A stretch of 64,000 nucleotides of DNA from Glaciimonas sp. PAMC28666 (GTDB taxonomy: Bacteria > Pseudomonadota > Gammaproteobacteria > Burkholderiales > Burkholderiaceae_D). The translations under genes and the position numbers were made by a program. The stretch covers positions 4,526,001 to 4,590,000 of the forward strand of contig NZ_CP070304.1 of NCBI RefSeq assembly GCF_016917355.1, written 5' to 3'. Positions 9,109 through 55,587 of the stretch are shown here, in pieces. Below the pieces are notes generated by a model that saw only the letters and a program-made list of their open reading frames with translations, was not told where the DNA came from and did not search any database. Numbering within the stretch: position 1 is the first letter of the stretch; every line of letters begins with the position of its first letter.

Positions 9109-10176
9109 CTAACGAGTCGGCTTAACATTCTCCCCCACACGTCGATAAACCTTTTTAGTGATTTCCTGCTCCGTATGCCCAAGTAACCGACTAGCCGCGC
9201 CAATATCCGCTATTTCCGACGCCGCTTTTGGCCGGATATCACGAAACTGAAATTGTTTAATCCGGATGGCCAGCTCTTCGTAGTCGCCATTTTTTTCATC
9301 TATGACCTGCTTTATTGCTGCGATCCGCGCATTATCGAATCTTGTACGTAGCGTTCCCTTGTTAAGCGGTTGTCCGGCCCTGTTAGCTACCAAGTACACA
9401 CTTTTGACTTTCCCTTTACGCGCAAGAATTTTGTCGATCGTCGTGCCAAGTTCTGAGCGGACATCCTGGTCGTCCAGGACAATGCGGAGGATTTTTTTTG
9501 TTTTGCCTTGCTTGACTTCCAACGCGCCGTTTTTGACATGAGCATGCATCATTTTTAACGTGTCAGCGTTGCGCTGGCCTGTCAGATACGCGATATCCAT
9601 CGCATCGCGTAATTCTTCGCACGCGGCGTTATAGACCGCGTCCCATACGGGTGCATCTGCGTAGAAGTCGCGGGGATGTTCCTTATTCTTCCGAACGCCT
9701 CGGCATGGATTCTCTTTTTCGGTAAAGCCCCATTCGCGTGCCATATTGTAGATATTGGACAAAAGCGAAAGCTCCCGGTTAGCCCGAACTTTGGCGGTGC
9801 GGGCGTCCCGGTATTGGGCGATATGGTGCGGAGTGATGGAACTGATCGGAGCGTCGTTAAACGTTATCCTCAATTGCTTAAGCGACCAGCCATTTTCCTT
9901 CTGTGTGCCCACAGCTTTTTGGGAGATGATGTCGCGCTCGTATCGATTGAAAATATACCTGCACAAGCTGGTATCTATTGGAATGGGTGCGCAATCTAGT
10001 TCCGCCCATTTTCGCTTAGCCTCGGTAAGGTCGGACCCGAGAAGAATTTCTTTGCGTTTGCCATTTTCATCGCGGCCATTGTAATAATATCTGATCCACT
10101 TCAAACCACTTTTTCGGATACGGGTACGCCGAAGCATATTCGGTGGCAAATCCCGCGATGTTGATTTAGGTCGCAT
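9109..10176 (-). CDS. int: Phage integrase (tyrosine recombinase)
   Basis: A 355-aa site-specific recombinase. It has an N-terminal arm-binding segment, a SAM-like core-binding domain (about 70-155) and a catalytic domain with R202 (TGQRNADTL), R315 in RDIRPKAAS, H334 in LLGHT and the nucleophile Y344 (KKVYRR). The usual H of the HxxR box is replaced by R312. It presumably joins attP to the tRNA-Ser attB. It is the last gene of a leftward operon starting at 11407, whose promoter carries the repressor operators, so integration and excision appear to be under repressor control. Confidence 0.95.
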   Translation of the reverse strand: MRPKSTSRDLPPNMLRRTRIRKSGLKWIRYYYNGRDENGKRKEILLGSDLTEAKRKWAELDCAPIPIDTSLCRYIFNRYERDIISQKAVGTQKENGWSLKQLRITFNDAPISSITPHHIAQYRDARTAKVRANRELSLLSNIYNMAREWGFTEKENPCRGVRKNKEHPRDFYADAPVWDAVYNAACEELRDAMDIAYLTGQRNADTLKMMHAHVKNGALEVKQGKTKKILRIVLDDQDVRSELGTTIDKILARKGKVKSVYLVANRAGQPLNKGTLRTRFDNARIAAIKQVIDEKNGDYEELAIRIKQFQFRDIRPKAASEIADIGAASRLLGHTEQEITKKVYRRVGENVKPTR

Positions 10177-12125: not shown

Positions 12126-12314
12126 ATGCATACCGAGCAAGAGACCGAACTTTTGAATGCGTTTAAAGTGATTCCTGCTGTCGATAAAAAGATGATATTA
12201 GATTTGACGAAGAGCCTAGGTCCTGAGCATGTAAATGCGCGACCAGCCTTACGATTAATCCAAGGTGGACCGCTGACCGCGGTTTACAACAACCTTCTCA
12301 GCGGCAACCGCTGA
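12126..12314 (+). CDS. Small hypothetical protein convergent with repressor
   Basis: 62 aa, with a strong ribosome-binding site (AAAAGGAG) 5 bases before the ATG. No domain is recognised; it is mainly helical and soluble (EQETELLNAFKVIPAVDKKM). Its last 60 bases overlap the 3' end of the repressor gene on the other strand, so the two transcripts can pair. A role in the lysogeny switch is possible but not shown. Confidence 0.6.
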   Translation: MHTEQETELLNAFKVIPAVDKKMILDLTKSLGPEHVNARPALRLIQGGPLTAVYNNLLSGNR

Positions 12315-12740
12315 TTTCAAAATAAAAGATCTTCCTTTATCCGTAGATTGCGCAAATAAATCGATCAGTTTCGTTAGATCGTCTGCATCGATCATCATTG
12401 GATCATCGTTTTTTTGATCAATTTGCAGATGGTCTAACTCGCTTGCTGGGCGCGACTTTTTTCCGACTCGGCCTTCCGAGCCAAATTGAAGATATGCAGG
12501 CGACAGCTTGAGGAGTTCCGCCAACATTAAAATTTTATCTTGGCGCGGCATGGCTTGACCAAGCGTATAACGACGAGCCATTTCGTAGCTAATCGATAAA
12601 TAAATCCTAATATCGGTAACGGTAATGGCGTTATCTTTCATAGCCGCCTGTATGCGACTAGCTAGTTCCGGATATTTGTCCGGCATCCCATTCAATTCTT
12701 TGCGATCCGTCATAGGGTAGAAGGATAGATAAAACTTCAA
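12255..12740 (-). CDS. Phage repressor (CI-like, HTH only)
   Basis: 161 aa. An N-terminal helix-turn-helix domain (VTDIRIYLSISYEMARRYTLGQAMPR) is followed by a linker and a short helical C-terminus (DLTKLIDLFAQSTDKGRSF). It lacks the S24 LexA-like peptidase domain, so RecA-stimulated self-cleavage is not expected. Starts at codon 10 (MTDRK) or 19 are also possible. It is divergent from the cro-like gene across a pair of operator palindromes, the standard immunity layout. Confidence 0.85.
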   Translation of the reverse strand: MKFYLSFYPMTDRKELNGMPDKYPELASRIQAAMKDNAITVTDIRIYLSISYEMARRYTLGQAMPRQDKILMLAELLKLSPAYLQFGSEGRVGKKSRPASELDHLQIDQKNDDPMMIDADDLTKLIDLFAQSTDKGRSFILKSAVAAEKVVVNRGQRSTLD

Positions 12741-12824: not shown

Positions 12825-13076
12825 ATGTTATCGACGTTCATCCCCAACCCGATTGCCGACGCGATCGACTATCTTGGCGGTGACACGGCTGTTGCTAAAC
12901 GGGCCGGATTAAAGACGTCTTGGGCGGTCGCAAAATGGCGAAAAAAACTTCCTGCTGAGCGCACCATTTGGCTAGCCAAAGAAACCGGCTTTATTTATTC
13001 ACCTCACGTCCTGAATCCAACAATGTATCCCAATCCTAAGGATGGACTTCCTAGGAGGGAGGGTCGTAATGCATGA
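12825..13076 (+). CDS. Cro-like DNA-binding protein
   Basis: 83 aa. A Cro/YdaS-type helix-turn-helix (DAIDYLGGDTAVAKRAGLKTSW, then VAKWRKK) is followed by a short C-terminal arm with YSPHVLNPTMYPN. It is the first rightward gene after the operator region, opposite the repressor, as expected for Cro. It should oppose the repressor at the CTACTTTAAGTAG sites. Confidence 0.85.
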   Translation: MLSTFIPNPIADAIDYLGGDTAVAKRAGLKTSWAVAKWRKKLPAERTIWLAKETGFIYSPHVLNPTMYPNPKDGLPRREGRNA

Positions 13077-15436: not shown

Positions 15437-15505
15437 TGCTGCTTTTCCGAATTCTTTGGCTGCGGACATAGCGGAAGCGGCCACGCCTATAAGGGTGAAA
15501 TCCAT
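15017..15505 (-). CDS. Phage protein with C-terminal zinc ribbon
   Basis: 162 aa. The layout is a hydrophobic/Ala-rich N-terminal helix (MDFTLIGVAASAMSAAKEFG), a helical coiled-coil-like middle (QQKEFETAKKLREMEETIAQ) and a C-terminal zinc ribbon with two CxxC pairs (LCQSCFDKG, then LDCVCCQKKLY). Small phage-encoded proteins with this order are common as prophage cargo; function is unknown. It is oriented against the early genes, consistent with a moron expressed in the lysogen. Confidence 0.75.
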   Translation of the reverse strand: MDFTLIGVAASAMSAAKEFGKAALNVRDFAEMAPVIAGLNEQLLKAQDALFIHNTHLLALQQKEFETAKKLREMEETIAQRGRYSLVEITTGIFTYGMNISPVSSDVSHPIGAEPMHYLCQSCFDKGIKSVLQRDSLYGSVYLDCVCCQKKLYNGERERSGL

Positions 15506-15655
15506 AAATGATACTTTCGTCGAAATGGTTCGTCGGCCTTCGCTTACGAATGGATCAATAACCGCAACATCCTAGGATTGCCTAGATACGGTTCGGCTGA
15601 GGGCAGTGTATTAGCCGCCCCCACATTTTTAAACCACCCCAAAAAGGAACAAGTA

Positions 15656-16120
15656 GTGGACCTCAGAAAAGCATATTTATCGATGATCAAATCTTTTAAT
15701 GGTGGGTGGGACGCCATTGCACCGGCGCTGGGCATGACGCGCAGCTCATTAGAAAACCGGATCTATGAACGCAAGGGCCAGTCGATATTGGTGGAAACGG
15801 CGATTCAGATGCAGGCGTTTTCTGGTACGAAGTTTTTTGCCGAAGCCATCGCGACCACCAGCGGCGGGGTGTTCGTTAAGTTGTTTGAAGGCGAGGATGT
15901 TGATGATGAATTGCTGCATCTTAAATTCCAGAAGCTATACGCTGGCCTTGGTCGCCTGTCGCAGTCTTACACCGATGCAACGGCTGATGGCGAGATCGAC
16001 AAACGCGAGCGCAAGGAGTTGAACGCGATTGCCGAAGAAATCCACAAGACCATTCAGGAAATGATGAGCCTGATGTTTAAGGTTTACTGCCGCGCTGAGA
16101 ATTCAAGCGATGACAAGTAA
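15656..16120 (+). CDS. YmfL-family phage regulatory protein
   Basis: 154 aa from GTG at 15656, preceded by AAAAAGGAAC; the frame is open to 15578, but the family starts at V/M-DLRKAYLSMIKSF. The N-terminal part is HTH-like (GGWDAIAPALGMTRSSLENRIYE) and resembles the YmfL/CII-type regulators found downstream of cro in lambdoid prophages. The middle and end are helical (EEIHKTIQEMMSLMFKVYC). It likely controls the early or establishment promoters; the target is unknown. Confidence 0.8.
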   Translation: MDLRKAYLSMIKSFNGGWDAIAPALGMTRSSLENRIYERKGQSILVETAIQMQAFSGTKFFAEAIATTSGGVFVKLFEGEDVDDELLHLKFQKLYAGLGRLSQSYTDATADGEIDKRERKELNAIAEEIHKTIQEMMSLMFKVYCRAENSSDDK

Positions 16121-16192
16121 CGGCAAGCTAAGCGAACCAAGATGTAGGCCCCATCGGGGTTTGTCGGCCACATCGCAACCGCCGTTAGCTGC

Positions 16193-16624
16193 ATGAAGCG
16201 CAGCACCATCAAACCCCGTTCCACACCCATGAGGCGCGCACCCATGACGCGCGGCCTTACTGGTCTTCTGTCCTTAACATCCTTCCAGCGTTCCAAGAAG
16301 CCGCCCAAGCGGATCAAGTCCCGCCAGAAGGTGGTGCCGACTATTGAGAAAGCGCACTACAGGCGCGTGGCAGGTTTGCCGTGCGCGTGTTGTGGAATCG
16401 AAGGATTCTCCCAGGCGGCGCACAGCAATCGCCATCAGGACGGTAAGGGGGCAGGGCTGAAGGCACATTATCTGGCGACTTTTCCGCTGTGCTGTGATCG
16501 TCCTGGCGTGGTGGGTTGCCATACCAAACATGATCAGTGCATAGGCGGCGACAGGGCAGAGATGGACCGACGCTCGATAATTTATTTCGCGCATACAAAG
16601 CAACAATTGGAGGTGACGCAATGA
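16193..16624 (+). CDS. Ref/HNH-like zinc-finger protein
   Basis: 143 aa. The basic N-terminus has repeated S/T-P-R-R motifs. A cysteine/histidine cluster follows: PCACCGIEGFSQAAHSNRH, then FPLCCDRPGVVGCHTKHDQC. This matches the Ref/DUF968-type group of phage recombination-associated HNH-like nucleases. Its stop overlaps the next gene's start (ATGA), so it is coupled to the replication protein. A recombination role is inferred from family. Confidence 0.75.
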   Translation: MKRSTIKPRSTPMRRAPMTRGLTGLLSLTSFQRSKKPPKRIKSRQKVVPTIEKAHYRRVAGLPCACCGIEGFSQAAHSNRHQDGKGAGLKAHYLATFPLCCDRPGVVGCHTKHDQCIGGDRAEMDRRSIIYFAHTKQQLEVTQ

Positions 16625-17187
16625 GCGTAGAAGCAATTACGTGGGCACTAAATCTCAAGGTAGAGCGGTCAACAGCGAAGTTTGTGCTGGTGGCGATGGC
16701 GAATTGCGCTAACAACGACATGGTGTGTTGGCCTTCCGTGCAATATCTTTCGGCTGCGACGTGCCAGGACCGCAAGACTGTTCAGGAGAACATTCGGCGC
16801 TTGAAGCAGGCGGGATTTATCGCTGCAACTGACGTCCGAAAAGGCCGAACTGGGCAGGTTATCGTCTATCAATTAAAGAATCCCGAAAACGGGCCTGTTA
16901 AAGAGGCCCAAAAACGGGACGTTAACGACCCTAACAGGCCCGGAAATGGGCCTGTTGATGAGCCATATAGTGGAAACGATCCCGAAAACGGGCCTGTTAA
17001 AGAAGCCCAAAAACGGGAGGGTATCGGGCTAAACACTCCCGAAAACGGGCCTCTTCAAGCGTTAAATGCTGAAAATGAAAGAGGCCCGTTTTTCCCATCT
17101 AACAGGCCCGTTTTTTCCCTTCAAAGAGGCCCGTTTTTCCCCAGAAACAGGCCCAAAAACGGGCCACGGAACCGTAAGGAACCGTAA
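16621..17187 (+). CDS. Replication protein, N-terminal part (HTH domain + repeat linker)
   Basis: 188 aa; GGAGGTGA precedes the ATG. Residues 1-85 form a winged-helix HTH_36-type domain (LNLKVERSTAKFVLVAMANC, VQYLSAATCQDRKTVQENIRRLKQAG). From about residue 89 the protein is a repeated Pro/Asn/Gly linker (PENGPVKEAQKR) encoded by the DNA repeat array at 16886-17164. It stops at 17185 in a 10-bp tandem repeat. Removing one repeat unit would fuse it to the next gene as a 372-aa lambda-O-like protein, so it is probably the split N-terminal half. Confidence 0.75.
   Translation: MSVEAITWALNLKVERSTAKFVLVAMANCANNDMVCWPSVQYLSAATCQDRKTVQENIRRLKQAGFIAATDVRKGRTGQVIVYQLKNPENGPVKEAQKRDVNDPNRPGNGPVDEPYSGNDPENGPVKEAQKREGIGLNTPENGPLQALNAENERGPFFPSNRPVFSLQRGPFFPRNRPKNGPRNRKEP
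16886..17164. repeat. Iteron-like repeat array, candidate replication origin
   Basis: Ten or so copies of a unit related to TAACAGGCCCGTTTT in both orientations. Full-length copies lie at 16886-16900, 16985-16999 and 17100-17114. An inverted pair lies at 16932-16957. Shorter or variant copies lie near 16911, 17010, 17042, 17081, 17126 and 17145-17164. They lie inside the replication-protein gene, as lambda ori lies inside gene O. Origin function is inferred. Confidence 0.65.
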
Positions 17188-17749
17188 GGAACCCAAAGAG
17201 AACCCAAAAGGGGCGCAAGCGCCTTCCGATCCAAACCCGGTTTGGAAACCCATCAATGCCCTGATCGCGGCCGGTGTGGATAACAAAACGGCGGGCGATT
17301 GGCTGAAGCTGCGCAAGGCAAAGAACGCGCCGGTGACCGAAACCGTCCTCGACATGGCGACGGCCGAGGCGGTGAAGGCAGGCATTCCGTTGATGGATGC
17401 CTTGAAAATTTGCTGTGTCCGCGGTTGGGCTGGCTTCAAAGCCGAATGGATTGTGAAGGACGACCACGGCAAAGCACAGGGCGCGTGGTACGCCACGGAG
17501 TCATCGGTGGCGGCCAAGGGAGCGGAACTGGGGATGCAGCCACACGCAGGCGAATCGCTCTACACGTTCAAAGGACGGATTCAAGCCGCGCTGGACAACG
17601 GCGGCAAGCCCCCAGTCTCAGTTTCCGGTCAAAGACTGATGCCAGCGATCAGGAGCAAACCCGAATCTGAAAACATCGGCCCATCCCCACAAAATCGCGC
17701 CGCCGTGCTGGAAGCCGCCCGCGCTCTGAGGCCGCGGTCATCGCTATGA
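17066..17749 (+). CDS. Replication protein, C-terminal part (shifted frame)
   Basis: 227 codons from the ATG at 17066; residues before about 50 read the repeat array in another frame and may not be native. The rest is the conserved C-terminal region of phage replication proteins of this type: PVWKPINALIAAGVDNKTAG, DWLKLRKAKNAPVTETVLDM, then CCVRGWAGFKAEWI. The frame joins the upstream gene if one GGAACCGTAA unit (17168-17177) is removed. Either a split gene or a two-protein arrangement. Confidence 0.75.
   Translation: MLKMKEARFSHLTGPFFPFKEARFSPETGPKTGHGTVRNRKEPKENPKGAQAPSDPNPVWKPINALIAAGVDNKTAGDWLKLRKAKNAPVTETVLDMATAEAVKAGIPLMDALKICCVRGWAGFKAEWIVKDDHGKAQGAWYATESSVAAKGAELGMQPHAGESLYTFKGRIQAALDNGGKPPVSVSGQRLMPAIRSKPESENIGPSPQNRAAVLEAARALRPRSSL
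17168..17187 (+). repeat. 10-bp tandem duplication splitting the replication gene
   Basis: Two perfect copies of GGAACCGTAA followed by a partial third (GGAACCC). Because 10 is not a multiple of 3, the extra copy shifts frame, and the second copy supplies the TAA stop. Both frames around it encode R-N-R-K-E-P, the mark of a recent slip. Confidence 0.85.
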
Positions 17750-17846
17750 AATCTGCGACCTGCTCGCAGCGTGGCCGGGGCGATTAAACGGGTTTGAACA
17801 GGCGATTCGATCAGATGCATAAGAATTTACTTAAAGGGTTTGAAGC

Positions 17847-18197
17847 ATGGCAACAGCAATCCGCAGACCAAAATATCGCAATACCACGGTGTGCCACAAC
17901 GGAGAACGCTTTGACAGCATTGCCGAGTTCAACCGGTACCGACAATTGCAGATTCTTGAGCGGGCAGGGCAGATATCCAACCTCACGCGCCAGATAGATT
18001 TTGTCCTCGCTCCCAGGGTAATTATCCAGGGTAAAACCAAAGCCGCGATGAAGTACAAGGCAGACTTTTCCTACACGAATGTTATGACCGGTTGCTACGT
18101 GGTGGAGGACGTCAAAGGCGTACTTACACCGGTCTACAAGGTCAAGCGCCACCTCATGAAGTGGGTGCATGAGATCGATATCGTGGAGACCAAATGA
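17847..18197 (+). CDS. DUF1064 family, nuclease-like phage protein
   Basis: 116 aa. The family pattern is clear: KYRNTTVCHNGERFDSIAEF at the start, RYRQLQILERAGQISNLTRQ, then KYKADFSYTNVMTGCYVVED followed by VKG. Glu in the first helix plus ADF and EDVKG gives a PD-(D/E)XK-type active-site layout, so a Holliday-junction-like nuclease has been suggested for the family; activity is unproven. It follows the replication genes. Confidence 0.8.
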   Translation: MATAIRRPKYRNTTVCHNGERFDSIAEFNRYRQLQILERAGQISNLTRQIDFVLAPRVIIQGKTKAAMKYKADFSYTNVMTGCYVVEDVKGVLTPVYKVKRHLMKWVHEIDIVETK

Positions 18198-18216
18198 CCA
18201 TCGAACAAGGGACCAA

Positions 18217-18579
18217 ATGAGCGCACTACGAAAAATCGAAGTAGTCGGCTACGTGCCAGACCCTTTAACCGAGGTGCTGGACATTTACGTGCGTTGGACC
18301 AGACGCGACGACGCCGGAAACGCCCACCGCGACCGCGAGCAGGACGATGAGTGGCATAACGCATCTTATGCACAAGCCGATATCAATACCGCGGAGGCTG
18401 TGCATTTGATGTTGTGGGAAATGAAGGAGATGCATCGTTGGGCCATTAACAAGCGTTGTGGTATTTCGCGGGTTTGGCGGTTTCCTAATGCGGTGTTTGT
18501 TGATGTGCTGGCTGTGGCGGAGGTGGGGATTGTTGAACGGATGAAACGGAATGCTGCTACTAGGGATTATTTTCGTTGA
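18217..18579 (+). CDS. Hypothetical phage protein, end of early region
   Basis: 120 aa from the ATG at 18217. It is rich in charged residues (RWTRRDDAGNAHRDREQDDE) followed by a helical half (EAVHLMLWEMKEMHRWAINK, RVWRFPNAVFVD). Its position, last before the cargo island and late genes, is where lambdoid phages carry antitermination genes; no Q-like domain is recognised, so that is only positional. Confidence 0.6.
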   Translation: MSALRKIEVVGYVPDPLTEVLDIYVRWTRRDDAGNAHRDREQDDEWHNASYAQADINTAEAVHLMLWEMKEMHRWAINKRCGISRVWRFPNAVFVDVLAVAEVGIVERMKRNAATRDYFR

Positions 18580-20216: not shown

Positions 20217-22352
20217 ATGCGCTTGAAATACGTACTTGTCGTTCCGGAGGGAGTTTCTGAGCAGCTGGATGTAACCCCTTTCCAAGGGTGGAACCGGGGG
20301 GTTGCGAATCCGGTATTTTTGAGTTTGCTGCGCATTCTTTGTTGCTTGCCACTCGCATTGGACGAGGTACTCATGACTCACGATGAATTGCGAGAGTCTA
20401 GGCGGGTTAATGACTTCAAGTATGTAATTGCCATTGGGAGAGACTCACTTAAAAAAATCCAATTTGTGAGCATAGACGAGGTAACTGTTTTTCTCTGTCT
20501 TCCCACGCACATTAAAACCGTAAGGGAAACACAGAACATTAAGACTGGCATTGCACTAATACTATCGCCAACCGTGCAAGTAGGCGTTATTGACGTTAGG
20601 GAGATCCATGAGCCATTTTGTCATGGGATTGATAATGAGTTATGGTCCGTGATTTCTTGTCGGTCAGGAAAAAATAGCCTGCAGAGGAAGAAATACTCGA
20701 AATCGGTGGAACTGCCGCTGCTGCACGGTGTGGTCATGCCAAATATAATGTTGCTAGAGAATCTCGGTTATGTCGTCATCGGAGAAAAAGGCGCTATCTT
20801 GCATGATCACGAAAAGGCAATTGACGCTGTAGTTGCGACAGCAGAAATAGTCATGGATATATTATGCGTAGAGGAGTCTTCTCATAAGCAGGAGATTGTA
20901 ATTTACGCACCGTCTGTAAAAGTATTTTTCTATGACTTCAAAAGTAATGTTTGGAATCAGATCCTTAGACCTATAAAGGAAAGTTGGAAGAAAAAAGCAA
21001 TCGAACACCTACTTTTCAAATCAAAGTCTTATTCATCTTCGACAATTCGCTTTAACGGAGATCCTTTGGTCAATCCATATAAGGACCCTGTAATGGGTTC
21101 ACTCTTAGCGATCAGACAGAGCGAGATCTATGCGACTTCGATGGCTACGGCAGTACTTTCGTGTGTACAAAATATTGCAAGTGTAAGACTGCCGAATTCT
21201 ATTAATTTGCACTCATCACAATTGAGACAAATAGAAAATTTGTCAAAACGGTCCGACTCTAAAGCTGAAATGTTACTCCAGAAGGCCTTTCACAAGTATG
21301 TGAGTGACTTAAAAGATGATGTTGGAGACCAAATATCTGCATTGATATGCACAAGAACTCGGGCCTGCAAAATCTGTAGCGACGTCCCGTTGGAGTGGAT
21401 GTATTTGGGCAACCTTCCGTTGATGATAAGCCATGAAGTTTCGAAGCTTCCGATGACACCTGGGAATGTTCTTCTTCGGTCTGCTACGTGCGGATTGCCA
21501 ATAACCTTGCATGCGGATGACTTGAAGAAAATTCTGATCGTCAGATCATTTATAGATGGAGATCCTATAAAGCCAATGTTGGAATTTTCCATTAATTCAT
21601 TTGCAATTGATGAGCATTTGGAAACGAAGATAGTAGATGTTCAAAGCGAAAAAGAAGCGATCCAAGCCTTGAATGATTTTAATGGATTTGTCGTTATATT
21701 CGACTGCCACGGAGATCACGGCGGATCGAATTCAACTGGTTGGCTTCAGTTCGGAATAGATCGCACAAATACTTGGGAACTAGCTTATAAGGCCAGAATA
21801 CCGCCAATCGTCATGTTGAGCGCGTGTTCTACGGCACCTGTAGGTGGCTCACATGCTTCCGTCGCAAACGGACTGCTTAGATCTGGTGCATTCAGTGTCA
21901 TTGGTACGTTTCTTCCAGTAAACGGGGCGGAATCCTCGATATTCATCGCGAGAATTCTATATCGAATTAGCGCCTATCTGCCTGCGCTGAAATCAATAGG
22001 GATTGACCTCATAACTTGGCGGACCTTCATTGCTGGTTTCATGCAAATGTCTTACGTTACCGACGTATTACGTCACTTCGTTAAATTGGGTATCATCGAT
22101 ATAGCATTTTCACAATCGGTCAATCTTGAAGCAAACTATATGATAAATCTTCAACAGGACGATTGGTATGATTCTGTCATTCAAAAGATTTCTGAAAAGA
22201 CAGGAATTGCGGCAGATGAATTAATTAAGAAGATAGTTGATGGCAATCCATTGCTTGAAACGATGCGTTATTGCCATGTTGGTCTCCCCGAACATATTAG
22301 AATATTGCTGGGCGATCCAATTGAAGGATTGAAGACTAATGCCACGCACTAG
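20217..22352 (+). CDS. CHAT-domain protease protein
   Basis: 711 aa, no signal peptide or membrane helix. The C-terminal third is a caspase-like CHAT domain: catalytic histidine H498 in VIFDCHGDHGG and cysteine C537 in VMLSACSTAPVGG. The family's SVANGLLRSGAFSVIGTFLPVN motif follows. The roughly 450-residue N-terminal part has no recognised domain and may be the sensor; four cysteines at about 382-393 (CTRTRACKICSD) could bind zinc. CHAT proteases are known effectors in several anti-phage systems (for example Borvo and type III-E CRISPR-linked TPR-CHAT). Low GC content, cargo in the prophage. Substrate unknown. Confidence 0.85.
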   Translation: MRLKYVLVVPEGVSEQLDVTPFQGWNRGVANPVFLSLLRILCCLPLALDEVLMTHDELRESRRVNDFKYVIAIGRDSLKKIQFVSIDEVTVFLCLPTHIKTVRETQNIKTGIALILSPTVQVGVIDVREIHEPFCHGIDNELWSVISCRSGKNSLQRKKYSKSVELPLLHGVVMPNIMLLENLGYVVIGEKGAILHDHEKAIDAVVATAEIVMDILCVEESSHKQEIVIYAPSVKVFFYDFKSNVWNQILRPIKESWKKKAIEHLLFKSKSYSSSTIRFNGDPLVNPYKDPVMGSLLAIRQSEIYATSMATAVLSCVQNIASVRLPNSINLHSSQLRQIENLSKRSDSKAEMLLQKAFHKYVSDLKDDVGDQISALICTRTRACKICSDVPLEWMYLGNLPLMISHEVSKLPMTPGNVLLRSATCGLPITLHADDLKKILIVRSFIDGDPIKPMLEFSINSFAIDEHLETKIVDVQSEKEAIQALNDFNGFVVIFDCHGDHGGSNSTGWLQFGIDRTNTWELAYKARIPPIVMLSACSTAPVGGSHASVANGLLRSGAFSVIGTFLPVNGAESSIFIARILYRISAYLPALKSIGIDLITWRTFIAGFMQMSYVTDVLRHFVKLGIIDIAFSQSVNLEANYMINLQQDDWYDSVIQKISEKTGIAADELIKKIVDGNPLLETMRYCHVGLPEHIRILLGDPIEGLKTNATH

Positions 22353-23879: not shown

Positions 23880-24350
23880 ATGGTCGGGAGACGCCCTAAA
23901 CCCACGGCCTTAAAACTGGTCACAGGCAATGCCGGAAAGCGTGCGCTGAACAAAACTGAGCCCAAGCCGCGGCGGGAAATCCCTTCCTGTCCAGCGCATC
24001 TGGACGACGCGGGCAAAGTTGCATGGGGCCGGTTATCCGTGCTGTTAGATCGGATGGGTGTGTTGACCGAAGCCGATAGTTTTGCGCTCGAGCGGCTGTG
24101 CGATTGCTACGCCGACATTTTGGCGTGCCGCATTTTAATCGTGCGCGATGGTCGCACGTACGAAACCGTCGATCAGTCCGGCAACACGCTCATCAAAAAT
24201 AATCCTGCCGTCAATCAGTTACGCGCCGCAGATTCCCAATTCAAAAGTTACCTGGTCGAGTTCGGCCTGACGCCTGCCGCCAGATCGAAAGTACACGCCA
24301 TACCCGATGACGACGATAAAAAAGACCCGCTCAAAGAGTTCTTCGGGTAA
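23880..24350 (+). CDS. Terminase small subunit, P27 family
   Basis: 156 aa. The family start GRRPKPTALKLVTGNAGKR is clear, followed by AHLDDAGKVAWGRLSVLLDR and, near the end, PAVNQLRAADSQFKSYLVEF and GLTPAARSKV. It binds phage DNA at the packaging start site and recruits the large subunit. Its end overlaps the next gene by 44 bp. Confidence 0.93.
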   Translation: MVGRRPKPTALKLVTGNAGKRALNKTEPKPRREIPSCPAHLDDAGKVAWGRLSVLLDRMGVLTEADSFALERLCDCYADILACRILIVRDGRTYETVDQSGNTLIKNNPAVNQLRAADSQFKSYLVEFGLTPAARSKVHAIPDDDDKKDPLKEFFG

Positions 24351-37295: not shown

Positions 37296-40200
37296 GTAGC
37301 GCCGGACAAATTATCGGTGGCGTAGTAGGGGCGGTAGCAGGCTTCTATCTCGGTGGTCCGCAAGGCGCGCTAGTCGGCGCGCAGCTCGGCATGGGGGTGG
37401 GTGGCATGGTTGACCCGCCCAAGGGGCCGCATATTGTTGGCCCGCGCCTGACCGATCTGACGACCCAGACAAGCACCTACGGCGCAGTCATCCCCCGCGT
37501 GTATGGCACCGTCCCGATAGTGGGCAACGTCTTCTGGCTAGAAAATAATCAACTCAAAGAAACTGAACATACGCAACGACAAGGTAAGGGCGGCGGCGGC
37601 GCAGAGTCCACCACTTTTACTTATAGCGCCACTTTTGCAGTGGGACTATGTAAAGGGCCAATACAGGGTGTGCGGCGGATCTGGATTGGCCCCAACCTGG
37701 TCTATGACGCCACGGGGAACGACGTAGCCAGTGTCATTGCAAGTGACAATGTCAGAACCTTATTTTCCATTTACCACGGCACCGATGATCAAGATCCTGA
37801 CCCTCGCATGCAAGCAACATTGGGCGTGGCAAACACACCCGCCTATCGCGGATTGGCGTATATCGTTTTTAATGACTTACCGATGGCGGATTACCAGAAT
37901 TCATTGGTGGGTGCCCAGGTAAAGGCCGAAGTATTCACGCATGGCAAGCTGGAATTTGTGATGTCGAATATATCTGGATCATTTCCCCGGGGGAAAGATG
38001 ACAATATCACCGGCCCATACAAAGATGAAAGCGGCTTGCGAGTGTGGCAAATGTCGGATTTCGTGGCGGGAGGCACCCCTCGCGTGGTCAGCAGGTACCT
38101 GGTGCCATTTCAAGGCGATCCAATACTATTAAGTTCCGCACCTGTTCTGTTGCCGAGGGGTAGTTCCGTTGCCAGGATGAAGGCAGATATTGACGTTATG
38201 GGTATCTTGGATAGCGCCGGGAAGGGTAGCCTGGGAATCCTGGACGCCAACTACAACCTCAGAACCTATTACTCAGCAGTCACTAGTGGGTTTGCGGAGA
38301 ATGCTGTTGTTCATCAAGGCTATGTCTATTTTGCGTGCGGTTGGCCCTCCAAAATATCGCTGACCCGATCAGACCTGCGTTCCGGCGTTTCAGTCGATAT
38401 TCCTCTAACGATTGCCGCTGTTGATCGCAACGGGTGTAGGGTCTTGGGCATCGTCGGTAACCAGTTGATCATGGGGGTGATGGCGGCCCACGATCAAAGA
38501 GATTACATTTTGATATACGATAAAGACACGCTAGCCTTCATTCAAGTGGTCGAATTTAAAAAACTCTACCCTAGGGTTAACGCCCCGTCAGATCTATCGT
38601 TTACCGGTGGTCACCTGTACTACAAAACTTTTAAACAGGATCTCTTTCGAACAGACCGCCTTGGCGGGGAGCCTGTGCTAGTGATGAAAGGAGAAATATT
38701 TGGAGGGGGAACGTCTACCTTTCCACGGTATTTGCATAGCTATGGGGACGCTTTAATTGGTGTCTTATACATCGGCTCGGGTGGTCGCCGCGATGTCACC
38801 ACATGGGTCGCTCAGCAAAACGTCAGCACGGTACCGCTCTCGTCCATTATCCGGGCCGAAGCAAGCAATAACCGCTGGTTGACCGCGGAGGATCTGGACG
38901 TCACTGACTTGACCAATGCGGTCCGTGGTTACACCATTAGCGCCATCGGTGCCATCCGCGGCGGGTTCGATCCATTGATCGGCGCGTGGCCGTTCGATAT
39001 CATCCAGTCGGGCTACAAAATTGTCTGCAAACGCCGTGGTGGCACATCCGTGGTGACGATTCCAATCGCCAAACTGGACGCACGTGGCATCGGTGGCCAG
39101 CCTGGTGTGCAAGTGACCACCATACGCGAAATGGATGCCGTGTTACCGAGTAAGGTCGCCTTAAAATATTTCGATAGCGCACGGGAATACGATTTAGGCG
39201 AACAATACGCGGAGCGCCTGAACACCCAATCGGTTCACATCAAGTCGATGGATTTGCCGGTTGTATTGACCGCTGATGAAGCCGCACAAAAGGCAGAAAT
39301 CCTGCTGTACCTGTATTGGCTCGAACGGTACGACGTCACCTTCAGTTTGCCACCGGAATACAATTATCTGGAACCAGCCGATATCATTACCATCGTCGCT
39401 GAAGAAGCTACCTATGCTTTACGGTTAACGCAGATTAATTACACCTCTGATAGTCGACTGGAATGCGTCGCCAAGTATCACAGCGCATCCGTCTACACGT
39501 CAGCGGCGGTCGGTGGGGAAGGGACGTCCACCGGGCAAACATTGACGCTTCCTGGACCATCACAATACGCATTGATGGATATACCGCTATTGAAAGACGT
39601 TTTCGACAAGGCCGGATTTCCAGTGGCGATGGCGGGTTACCTAAACGGATGGCCGGGTGGCGTTCTCACACGCTCGGACGATGGCGGGCAAGTCTGGGAA
39701 CAGATTCAAGGTTTCTCCAAACCGGGGGCGACGATGGGCTATGCAGCCGGTCAGCTGACCGACCATAACGGACTGCAGATCGATAAGGCCAGCACGCTGT
39801 CTGTGAAGGTCAACCAAGCGCTATCCAGCGTTACCGAAGGCCAGATGCTCAATGGCGCGAACCATTTTGCGTATGGCAGCGACGGCCGCTGGGAAATCAT
39901 CGCCGCCCAACATTGCGCGCTGCAGGCCAATGGCACCTATGTCCTCACAGATCTGTTGCGCGGGCGTTTCGGCAGCGAGTGGGCAACCGGGCTGCACGCG
40001 GTCAATGATCAGCTTGTCCTGCTAGACGCCGTTAGCCTGCAGTTTGTTGCCAGCAATCTTAACGTCATCGGCGTCGAACGTACCTATCGCGGTATTACCA
40101 GCGGCAAGACGATGGATTCAGACAACAATCGCTCGATGACTTACCGGGGCGTGAATCTGCGTTGTCTGGCACCGGTCTACCTGAATGGCCATCGTCACCC

Positions 40201-53039: not shown

Positions 53040-55236
<2,197 letters not shown>

Positions 55237-55300
55237 TAAGTATTTTGGTCCCTTGTAAGGTCAGGCATCACTGCAGGAATCGCTTGCAAGCGATCCCCGC

Positions 55301-55348
55301 GTGAAACCGAAAAGCTGTGCACACGCACAGCTTTTTTTTCGGTTTCAC
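55301..55348 (+). terminator. ilvC terminator, copy 1
   Basis: A long two-part hairpin: outer arms GTGAAACCGAAAA / TTTTCGGTTTCAC, inner arms AGCTGTGC / GCACAGCT, with a T-tract inside the 3' arm. Strong, and also symmetric enough to stop transcription from the other side. Confidence 0.9.
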
Positions 55349-55460
55349 GTGCACGTGGATCAAAAAGAACGCCATGGTTGACCAAACTAAGAACTAAGAA
55401 TTTATTTAGTAATGGAAAAGTAAGGCATCATTGCAGGAATCGCTTGCAAGCGATCCCCGC

Positions 55461-55508
55461 GTGAAACCGAAAAGCTGTGCACATGCACAGCTTTTTTTTC
55501 GGTTTCAC
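55461..55508 (+). terminator. ilvC terminator, copy 2
   Basis: Same hairpin as at 55301, exactly 160 bp downstream, differing by one base in the loop (ACAT in place of ACAC). Confidence 0.9.
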
Positions 55509-55587
55509 GTGCACATGGATCAAAAAGAACGCCATGGCCGGAACTACTCAAAGAACTGGAATATTGACAATTAGGACTCCCAAACAA

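Follow-up and report, generated by a model that had tools for sequence, protein, structure and literature searches.

A putative in-gene replication origin within the HTH_36 initiator gene of a Glaciimonas prophage

Results

The initiator gene and its prophage setting

The window studied here is a stretch of 64,000 nucleotides from Glaciimonas sp. PAMC28666 (contig NZ_CP070304.1, positions 4,526,001 to 4,590,000), and coordinates below are those of this window. The features to which the analysis refers are as follows.

9109-10176: integrase
12255-12740, minus strand: repressor-like gene (Pfam/PHROG)
12825-13076: Cro/YdaS-like gene (below the Pfam cutoff; transcriptional repressor by PHROG)
15578-16120: CII-like gene, upstream of the initiator
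16193-16624: HNH/DUF968-like gene (DUF968 below cutoff), upstream of the initiator
16621-17187, plus strand: ORF with an N-terminal HTH_36 winged-helix domain and a repeat-encoded linker (Pfam, PHROG, AlphaFold2)
16771-16773, plus strand: codon of Arg51, the first residue of the recognition helix, which tracks half-site base 5 (covariation, model)
16875-17170, no strand assigned: element 1, ten dyad iterons with the consensus AACAGnnCC-GAAAAC-GGnnCTGTT
16882-16893, 16907-16918, 16939-16950, 16981-16992, 17006-17017 and 17038-17049, plus strand: six A-type cores (AAAA)
17085-17096, 17107-17119 and 17130-17141, minus strand: three T-type cores (TTTT; inverted), spaced 22-23 bp
17152-17163, plus strand: terminal A-type core, adjoining element 2
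17066-17749, plus strand: ORF with the C-terminal part of the initiator in a different frame (phrog_678, replication initiation O-like, E 3.3e-15; intact relatives align across both ORFs)
17168-17204, plus strand: element 2, GGAACC-type direct repeats on an A-skewed strand, directly right of the last dyad
17230-17246, no strand assigned: short inverted repeat with 8-bp arms and a 1-base loop, a weak candidate for a counterpart of the lambda ori palindrome
17847-18197: DUF1064 gene, downstream of the initiator
23880-24350: terminase small subunit

From this gene content, the initiator locus is assigned to the early region of a prophage. The product of 16621-17187 matched the Pfam family HTH_36 (E 6.6e-13; 48.7 bits with a gathering score of 25) as well as phrog_1032, 'replication initiation protein' (E 3.2e-26), and on these matches it is classed as an HTH_36 phage initiator (phrog_1032 and neighbours), in agreement with the first-pass annotation, which had placed the array in a replication-protein gene. 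The AlphaFold2 model of residues 1-89 (mean pLDDT 94.3) consists of helices followed by a two-strand hairpin, the wing. Comparison of the fold returned many kinds of winged-helix protein, with a best E of 9.8e-4 as the sole match at or below 0.001, and alignment of the HTH domain against the PDB gave no sequence relative at E 0.01. Two weak matches of the C-terminus to designed proteins in the PDB (E 0.028 and 0.081) were discarded. No plasmid Rep family scored above the Pfam cutoff for the window protein, the RP-C N-terminal domain falling below it, and NCBIfam gave no match for the five proteins submitted.

Among the 20 early-region ORFs given to PHROGs, no P-, DnaC- or DnaB-like gene (helicase or loader) was recognised. 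Between the early genes and the terminase lies a gene for a 711-aa protein (20217-22352), which showed a weak CHAT-domain match below the Pfam cutoff (E 0.0008) and a strong match to phrog_34827, a family of unknown function (E 1e-102). A tandem repeat of period 160 (2.1 copies, 90% match) was also seen at 55193-55537.

Ten dyad iterons lie within the initiator coding sequence

Ten repeat cores (CCCGAAAACGGG and variants) were located at 16882-17163 within the coding sequence of the initiator. With both half-sites included, the array covers about 16875-17170, a little wider than the 16886-17164 given by the first-pass annotation, whose description of some ten copies in mixed orientation across about 280 bp was otherwise borne out: seven cores are A-type and three T-type, in the order six A-type, three T-type and one A-type. 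The repeats had also been said to force a Pro-Glu-Asn-Gly-Pro linker. This peptide is present in three copies only, while the other copies read as Pro-Gly-Asn-Gly-Pro, Ala-Gln-Lys-Arg, Gly-Pro-Phe-Phe-Pro, Arg-Pro-Val-Phe or Arg-Pro-Lys-Asn-Gly. Since the copies are found in every codon phase and in both orientations, selection acts on the DNA and not on a Pro-Glu-Asn-Gly-Pro linker.

Dyads were scored by a symmetrised, near-palindromic 26-bp matrix at a threshold of 7.5 bits, which replaced a first seed pattern that was too strict. Its training began from a window unit and used 27 loci preselected as array-bearing, the window among them, so shuffles rather than the raw score serve as the test. 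From base 200 of the window gene to its stop codon, 7 dyads were detected, compared with a mean of 0.13 and a maximum of 2 in 200 dinucleotide shuffles, and with a mean of 3.83 and a maximum of 6 in 200 synonymous recodings that left the protein unchanged. The array in the window exceeds chance. Its three T-type units fall below the matrix threshold, and the matrix scored 22 places in the rest of the window (63,560 bases). Of the 16 copies of the decamer GGCCCGTTTT in the 5.23 Mb genome, 7 fall within these 280 bp. Genome-wide it is not enriched, as a backward-read control pattern occurs 26 times, and therefore only its clustering is special.

The array is conserved as DNA across HTH_36 relatives

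Relatives were collected by an HTH domain search that was blind to the repeats, which yielded 8 loci in genomes and 37 in viral contigs. After removal of a truncated locus (L007) and of 10 loci more than 90% similar to others, 35 non-redundant loci were kept, including the window. At least three dyads were found in 27 of the 35, a count made with the matrix trained on the same 27, so that it is the shuffles and not the count itself that confirm it. The eight loci judged array-less, namely L002, with 58% identity and a single dyad, and seven others of 33-42% identity, stood outside both the matrix training and the shuffle tests. In all 27 array-bearing loci the observed dyads outnumbered those of every dinucleotide shuffle, and at most 8 of 200 synonymous recodings matched the observed count (0 of 200 in 19 of the 27). 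The 164 dyads were distributed over the three codon phases as 68/49/47, and the centre-to-centre distance was 17, 22 or 25 bp in 87 of 135 cases. The array is thus conserved as DNA along with the initiator, and the comparison with related phages proposed by the first-pass annotation, which would have counted against its reading had the repeats been absent beside the same initiator, came out in its favour.

The density and mixed orientation of the repeats had also been called unusual, a view that finds no support in the enlarged set of 42 non-redundant arrays, where T-type cores were present in 20 and none was seen in 22. In 19 of the 20 mixed arrays, one T-type block followed A-type cores and preceded A-type or mixed cores, indicating that mixed orientation is a family trait. 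The layout was found in phages of Burkholderia, Edwardsiella, Acinetobacter, Vibrio, E. coli and other hosts, and in the records examined such genes are variously labelled primosomal, hypothetical, helix-turn-helix or replication protein. The HTH_36 domain and its array are joined to varied C-termini, including those of lambda O type (Edno5), of DnaT (phiV10) and unassigned ones. Two distant HTH initiators (L076 and L058) carry wholly different repeats, GGGTCA-type and AGTAGTAAAATTACTAC-type, at this position, with a GGAACC-like track after them.

Residue 51 of the initiator is associated with base 5 of the half-site

In the structural model, residue 51 opens the helix 51-64, which is the recognition helix (pLDDT 94.3). 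Across the first set, Arg follows Asp/Asn at the start of this helix in all loci but three array-bearing ones, which have Glu, Ile and Val there and carry C rather than G at half-site base 5. The Arg/G rule was written down before the held-out loci were fetched; the fixed pattern for counting half-sites was composed after the held-out sequences had been seen. Counts of loci, in the order Arg with G, Arg without G, non-Arg with G and non-Arg without G, were as follows.

Discovery set: 20, 1, 0, 3
Held-out set: 8, 1, 1, 8
Combined: 28, 2, 1, 11

The rule therefore fitted 16 of the 18 held-out loci (Fisher P 0.0034, without correction for the tree). A stricter form, in which non-Arg goes with C, fitted only 3 of the 9 held-out non-Arg loci, whose majority base was C in three, A in three, T in two and G in one; with the bases so mixed, only the weaker rule stands, that Arg goes with G and other residues do not. 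The rule is broken by 3 of the 42 loci (L010, L206 and L220), among which L010, with four C and four G, was scored as not G.

The two traits each change 7 times on the tree, for which the program warned that the long branches of L075 and L147 join. Five independent contrasts on supported branches gave a mean of 3.4 in agreement, 0 opposed and 1.6 neutral, which is not significant, and with only five such contrasts significance is out of reach. Taken together, these comparisons support a covariation that would link the N-terminal domain to the repeats, one that is not significant once relatedness is allowed for.

The sample consisted of 83 loci, from which 23 with fewer than three half-sites and 18 redundant ones were set aside to leave 42. 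Among those set aside, three loci with Arg have a single half-site, which reads C in L013 and L036 and G in L025; L204 (Arg) has one G and one A, and L203 (Ile) has none by the pattern and CCCCC by eye. Outside the count were also L207, L209, L210 and L212. A further group outside it comprises L047, L048, L059-L072, L074 and L077-L079, and almost all of this group repeat included contigs, with L059, L060 and L072 being short or distant matches. The held-out rows are partly dependent, as L073 shares 80% identity with L001, and the members of two pairs (L050/L053 and L217/L218) are closely related. L030 and EBPR podovirus 1 (L214) have identical sequence and were counted once.

A second element of GGAACC repeats adjoins the array

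Directly to the right of the last dyad, GAACC starts at 17169, 17179, 17189 and 17200, that is, in steps of 10, 10 and 11 bp and in codon phases 2, 0, 1 and 0. In the first set (27 arrays), 51 of the 61 GAAC/GAAT spacings measured 9-12 bp, and one array (L036) had no GAAC/GAAT element beside it. When the pattern was widened to GAAC, GAAT, TAACC/T and CAACC, chains of at least three units at 9-12 bp were seen in at least 26 of the 42 arrays, a lower bound because the automatic anchor missed element 2 in, for example, L004, L026 and L091. The longest chain averaged 0.83 in shuffled sequence, and P was 0.05 or less in 29 of the 42 arrays (100 shuffles each).

The strand is strongly A-skewed across 17151-17225, with an AT skew of 0.82 at 17151-17200. 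The adjacent A+T-rich region that would be expected of a lambda-type origin is absent to the right of the array, where 50-base windows from 17151 to 17300 have a G+C content of 54-60%. A general lambda-type palindrome after element 2 was considered and rejected: the longest stem averaged 5.6 against 4.9 in shuffles over the 42 loci and was significant in only 7 of them.

A scan of viral contigs with CGGAACC-N2-5-GGAACC-N2-5-GGAACC returned at least 120 stretches. An HTH relative lay beside the pattern in only 3 among the 120 matches listed (L091, L147 and L177, the last on the L010 contig), and the pattern was dropped as a signature of the initiator, since with so few relatives beside it element 2 alone is not diagnostic. 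Seven of the loci (L085, L088, L112, L129, L138, L154 and L155) share a common block of tandem GGAACCACT-like repeats followed by a ATATATATATA stretch, and no HTH relative was found beside this block in those viral contigs.

What element 2 does can be read in two ways. It may be a site for a host protein, or a mere unwinding track, instead of an initiator site; the strong A skew of the strand and the recurrence of the GGAACC letters after arrays with quite different dyads (L058) point in this direction. On the other hand, GGAAC is a half-site variant inside the dyads of several relatives, e.g. L003, L004 and L018, and the spacing of nearly one helical turn suggests binding to double-stranded DNA. 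We consider the host-site or unwinding reading, which is compatible with an origin at this locus, to fall just short of an even call.

The split reading frame and other readings of the array

In the window the initiator is split between frames, which, like element 2, the first-pass annotation did not mention. Its N- and C-terminal ORFs overlap at 17066-17187, and an intact relative, L012, aligned to the window with residues 1-159 in frame 1 and residues 134-248 in frame 2. The frame change sits inside the array at a homopolymer run of a length seen in no other of the 52 T-type units counted (83 partly redundant loci). An uninterrupted ORF, either reaching 220 residues or more or still open where the stretch read stops, was present in 40 of the 42 non-redundant arrays, the two exceptions being the window and L001 (L024 is identical here), which is split in the same +1 direction. 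The split could reflect decay, sequencing error or recoding, and the window's own split initiator may be inactive. It is possible, if rather doubtful, that the array is a former origin, now a relic in a decayed prophage with a frame-broken initiator, a reading that would still agree with an origin of this type. The broken frame and the unique run speak for it, whereas the window dyads are intact, the C-terminal ORF has possible start codons of its own, a second locus shares the direction of the split, and sequencing error is another possible cause.

Another reading takes the repeats as an autoregulatory or terminator element, in which an RNA hairpin made by neighbouring A- and T-type units would, with its U-run, lower the expression of downstream genes. 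Units 6 and 7 can pair over 13-14 bases (17042-17055 with 17079-17092), giving a GC-rich stem with a T-run at its 3' arm, and the RNA of the array folds better than 100 shuffles (z -7.6). However, such a fold follows automatically from inverted repeats, and a hairpin of this kind was found, under lenient rules, in just 15 of the 42 non-redundant arrays, 22 of which have no T-type core. A standard terminator scan of 15500-18300 (loops of 3-8 only) gave no plus-strand site and one minus-strand site inside the array (17165-17150), with 2 sites in total against a shuffled mean of 4.2. The hairpin reading also leaves the association between residue 51 and base 5 unexplained, and we judge it very improbable. 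A promoter scan was uninformative (1 site, 1.6 expected).

Finally, the DNA pattern can hardly be a by-product of the expansion of a flexible Pro/Asn/Gly-rich linker, even though Pro-Glu-Asn-Gly-Pro recurs, two conserved parts of the protein flank the repeat region and synonymous recodings retain part of the signal, because the dyads occupy all codon phases and both orientations, recoding the same protein yields fewer sites than observed, and the repeats of element 2 likewise stand in different codon phases.

Discussion

The array is very probably an in-gene, lambda-type replication origin of a temperate phage (here a prophage), placed inside the gene of its own initiator. The analysis shows the array itself, its conservation at the DNA level, the family of the initiator, the residue-base association and the second element; binding, dimers, bending, opening and helicase recruitment at the array are what we infer. 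In the proposed mechanism, the winged-helix N-terminal domain would bind the ten dyads, which lie where its own gene encodes the linker, probably with two initiator subunits per dyad, and Arg51 at the start of the recognition helix would read the G of AACAGnnCC. The dyads at the right end are about two helical turns apart (22-23 bp), so that several dimers could be stacked along the same face of the DNA and bend it. The GGAACC track, at one-turn spacing, would then either accommodate additional initiator subunits or itself form the region of opening, and the C-terminal part of the initiator would recruit the helicase.

A more specific scheme of a two-part origin can be formulated, in which residue 51 determines the identity of the dyads that the dimers load on (Arg reading G), the same protein spreads as ordered monomers along the helically phased GGAACC half-sites and opens the DNA, direction is given by the A-T-A orientation of the dyads, and the cassette of dyads plus HTH domain is swapped among unrelated helicase-recruiting C-termini (lambda O, DnaT types and others). 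Taken as a whole, this scheme is rather unlikely.

If the origin reading is right, a common motif would allow the likely origin of such prophages to be located from sequence alone. Should the residue-base relation be real, the compatibility of initiator and origin would become testable by single changes in laboratory phages, and element 2 raises the question of how a stretch that is not A+T-rich replaces the unwinding region of lambda. In the literature covered, no description was found of the dyad repeat, the GGAACC element or the residue-base relation, which is weak evidence of novelty, as most subscription papers lay outside that coverage.

In-gene iterons are classical in lambda, and the layout is traced here through another initiator domain, HTH_36. 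The lambda record has four iterons annotated inside CDS 38686-39585, and the parallel with gene O drawn by the first-pass annotation is sound as regards layout: in both cases dyad-symmetric repeats with a central A-tract lie in the middle of an initiator gene that follows a CII gene. Binding of O dimers to the lambda iterons has been described, with opening of the DNA next to them (PMC5043065). The two systems differ in several respects. The N-terminus of lambda O belongs to Phage_rep_O (PF04492), whereas that of the window initiator belongs to HTH_36 (PF13730), and judged by this domain the window gene is lambda-like in layout and not a member of the lambda O family. Lambda ori has four units, while the window array has ten, including an inverted T-type block; the iterons of lambda do not match the dyad matrix of the window family; and where lambda has an A+T-rich region beside its iterons, the window has GGAACC direct repeats at 54-60% G+C.

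Other systems show parts of the same arrangement. In-gene iterons have been described in Stx phages (PMC7466680), whereas PMC9144972 had no bearing on these questions. In P22 and L each phage has its own repeats inside gene 18 (PMC8022706), so that each initiator's repeats lie in its own coding sequence as in the window; the repeats as reported there differ in sequence from those of the window. The helically phased direct repeats of iteron plasmid origins (PMC5043065) resemble element 2, but the main array of the window is made of inverted dyads and no plasmid Rep family exceeded the Pfam cutoff. In Edwardsiella phage Edno5, the 'replication initiation O-like' gene combines HTH_36 and a dyad array of the same type with the C-terminus of lambda O (61% identity over 144 residues) and is followed by a P gene. 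Viewed side by side by eye, Edno5 also has a sequence like the lambda palindrome after its array, and base 5 of its half-sites is mostly A despite Arg at residue 51. The best reading of these comparisons is that the kind of origin is known, and that the locus described here would represent a two-part layout of it in an initiator family other than that of lambda O.
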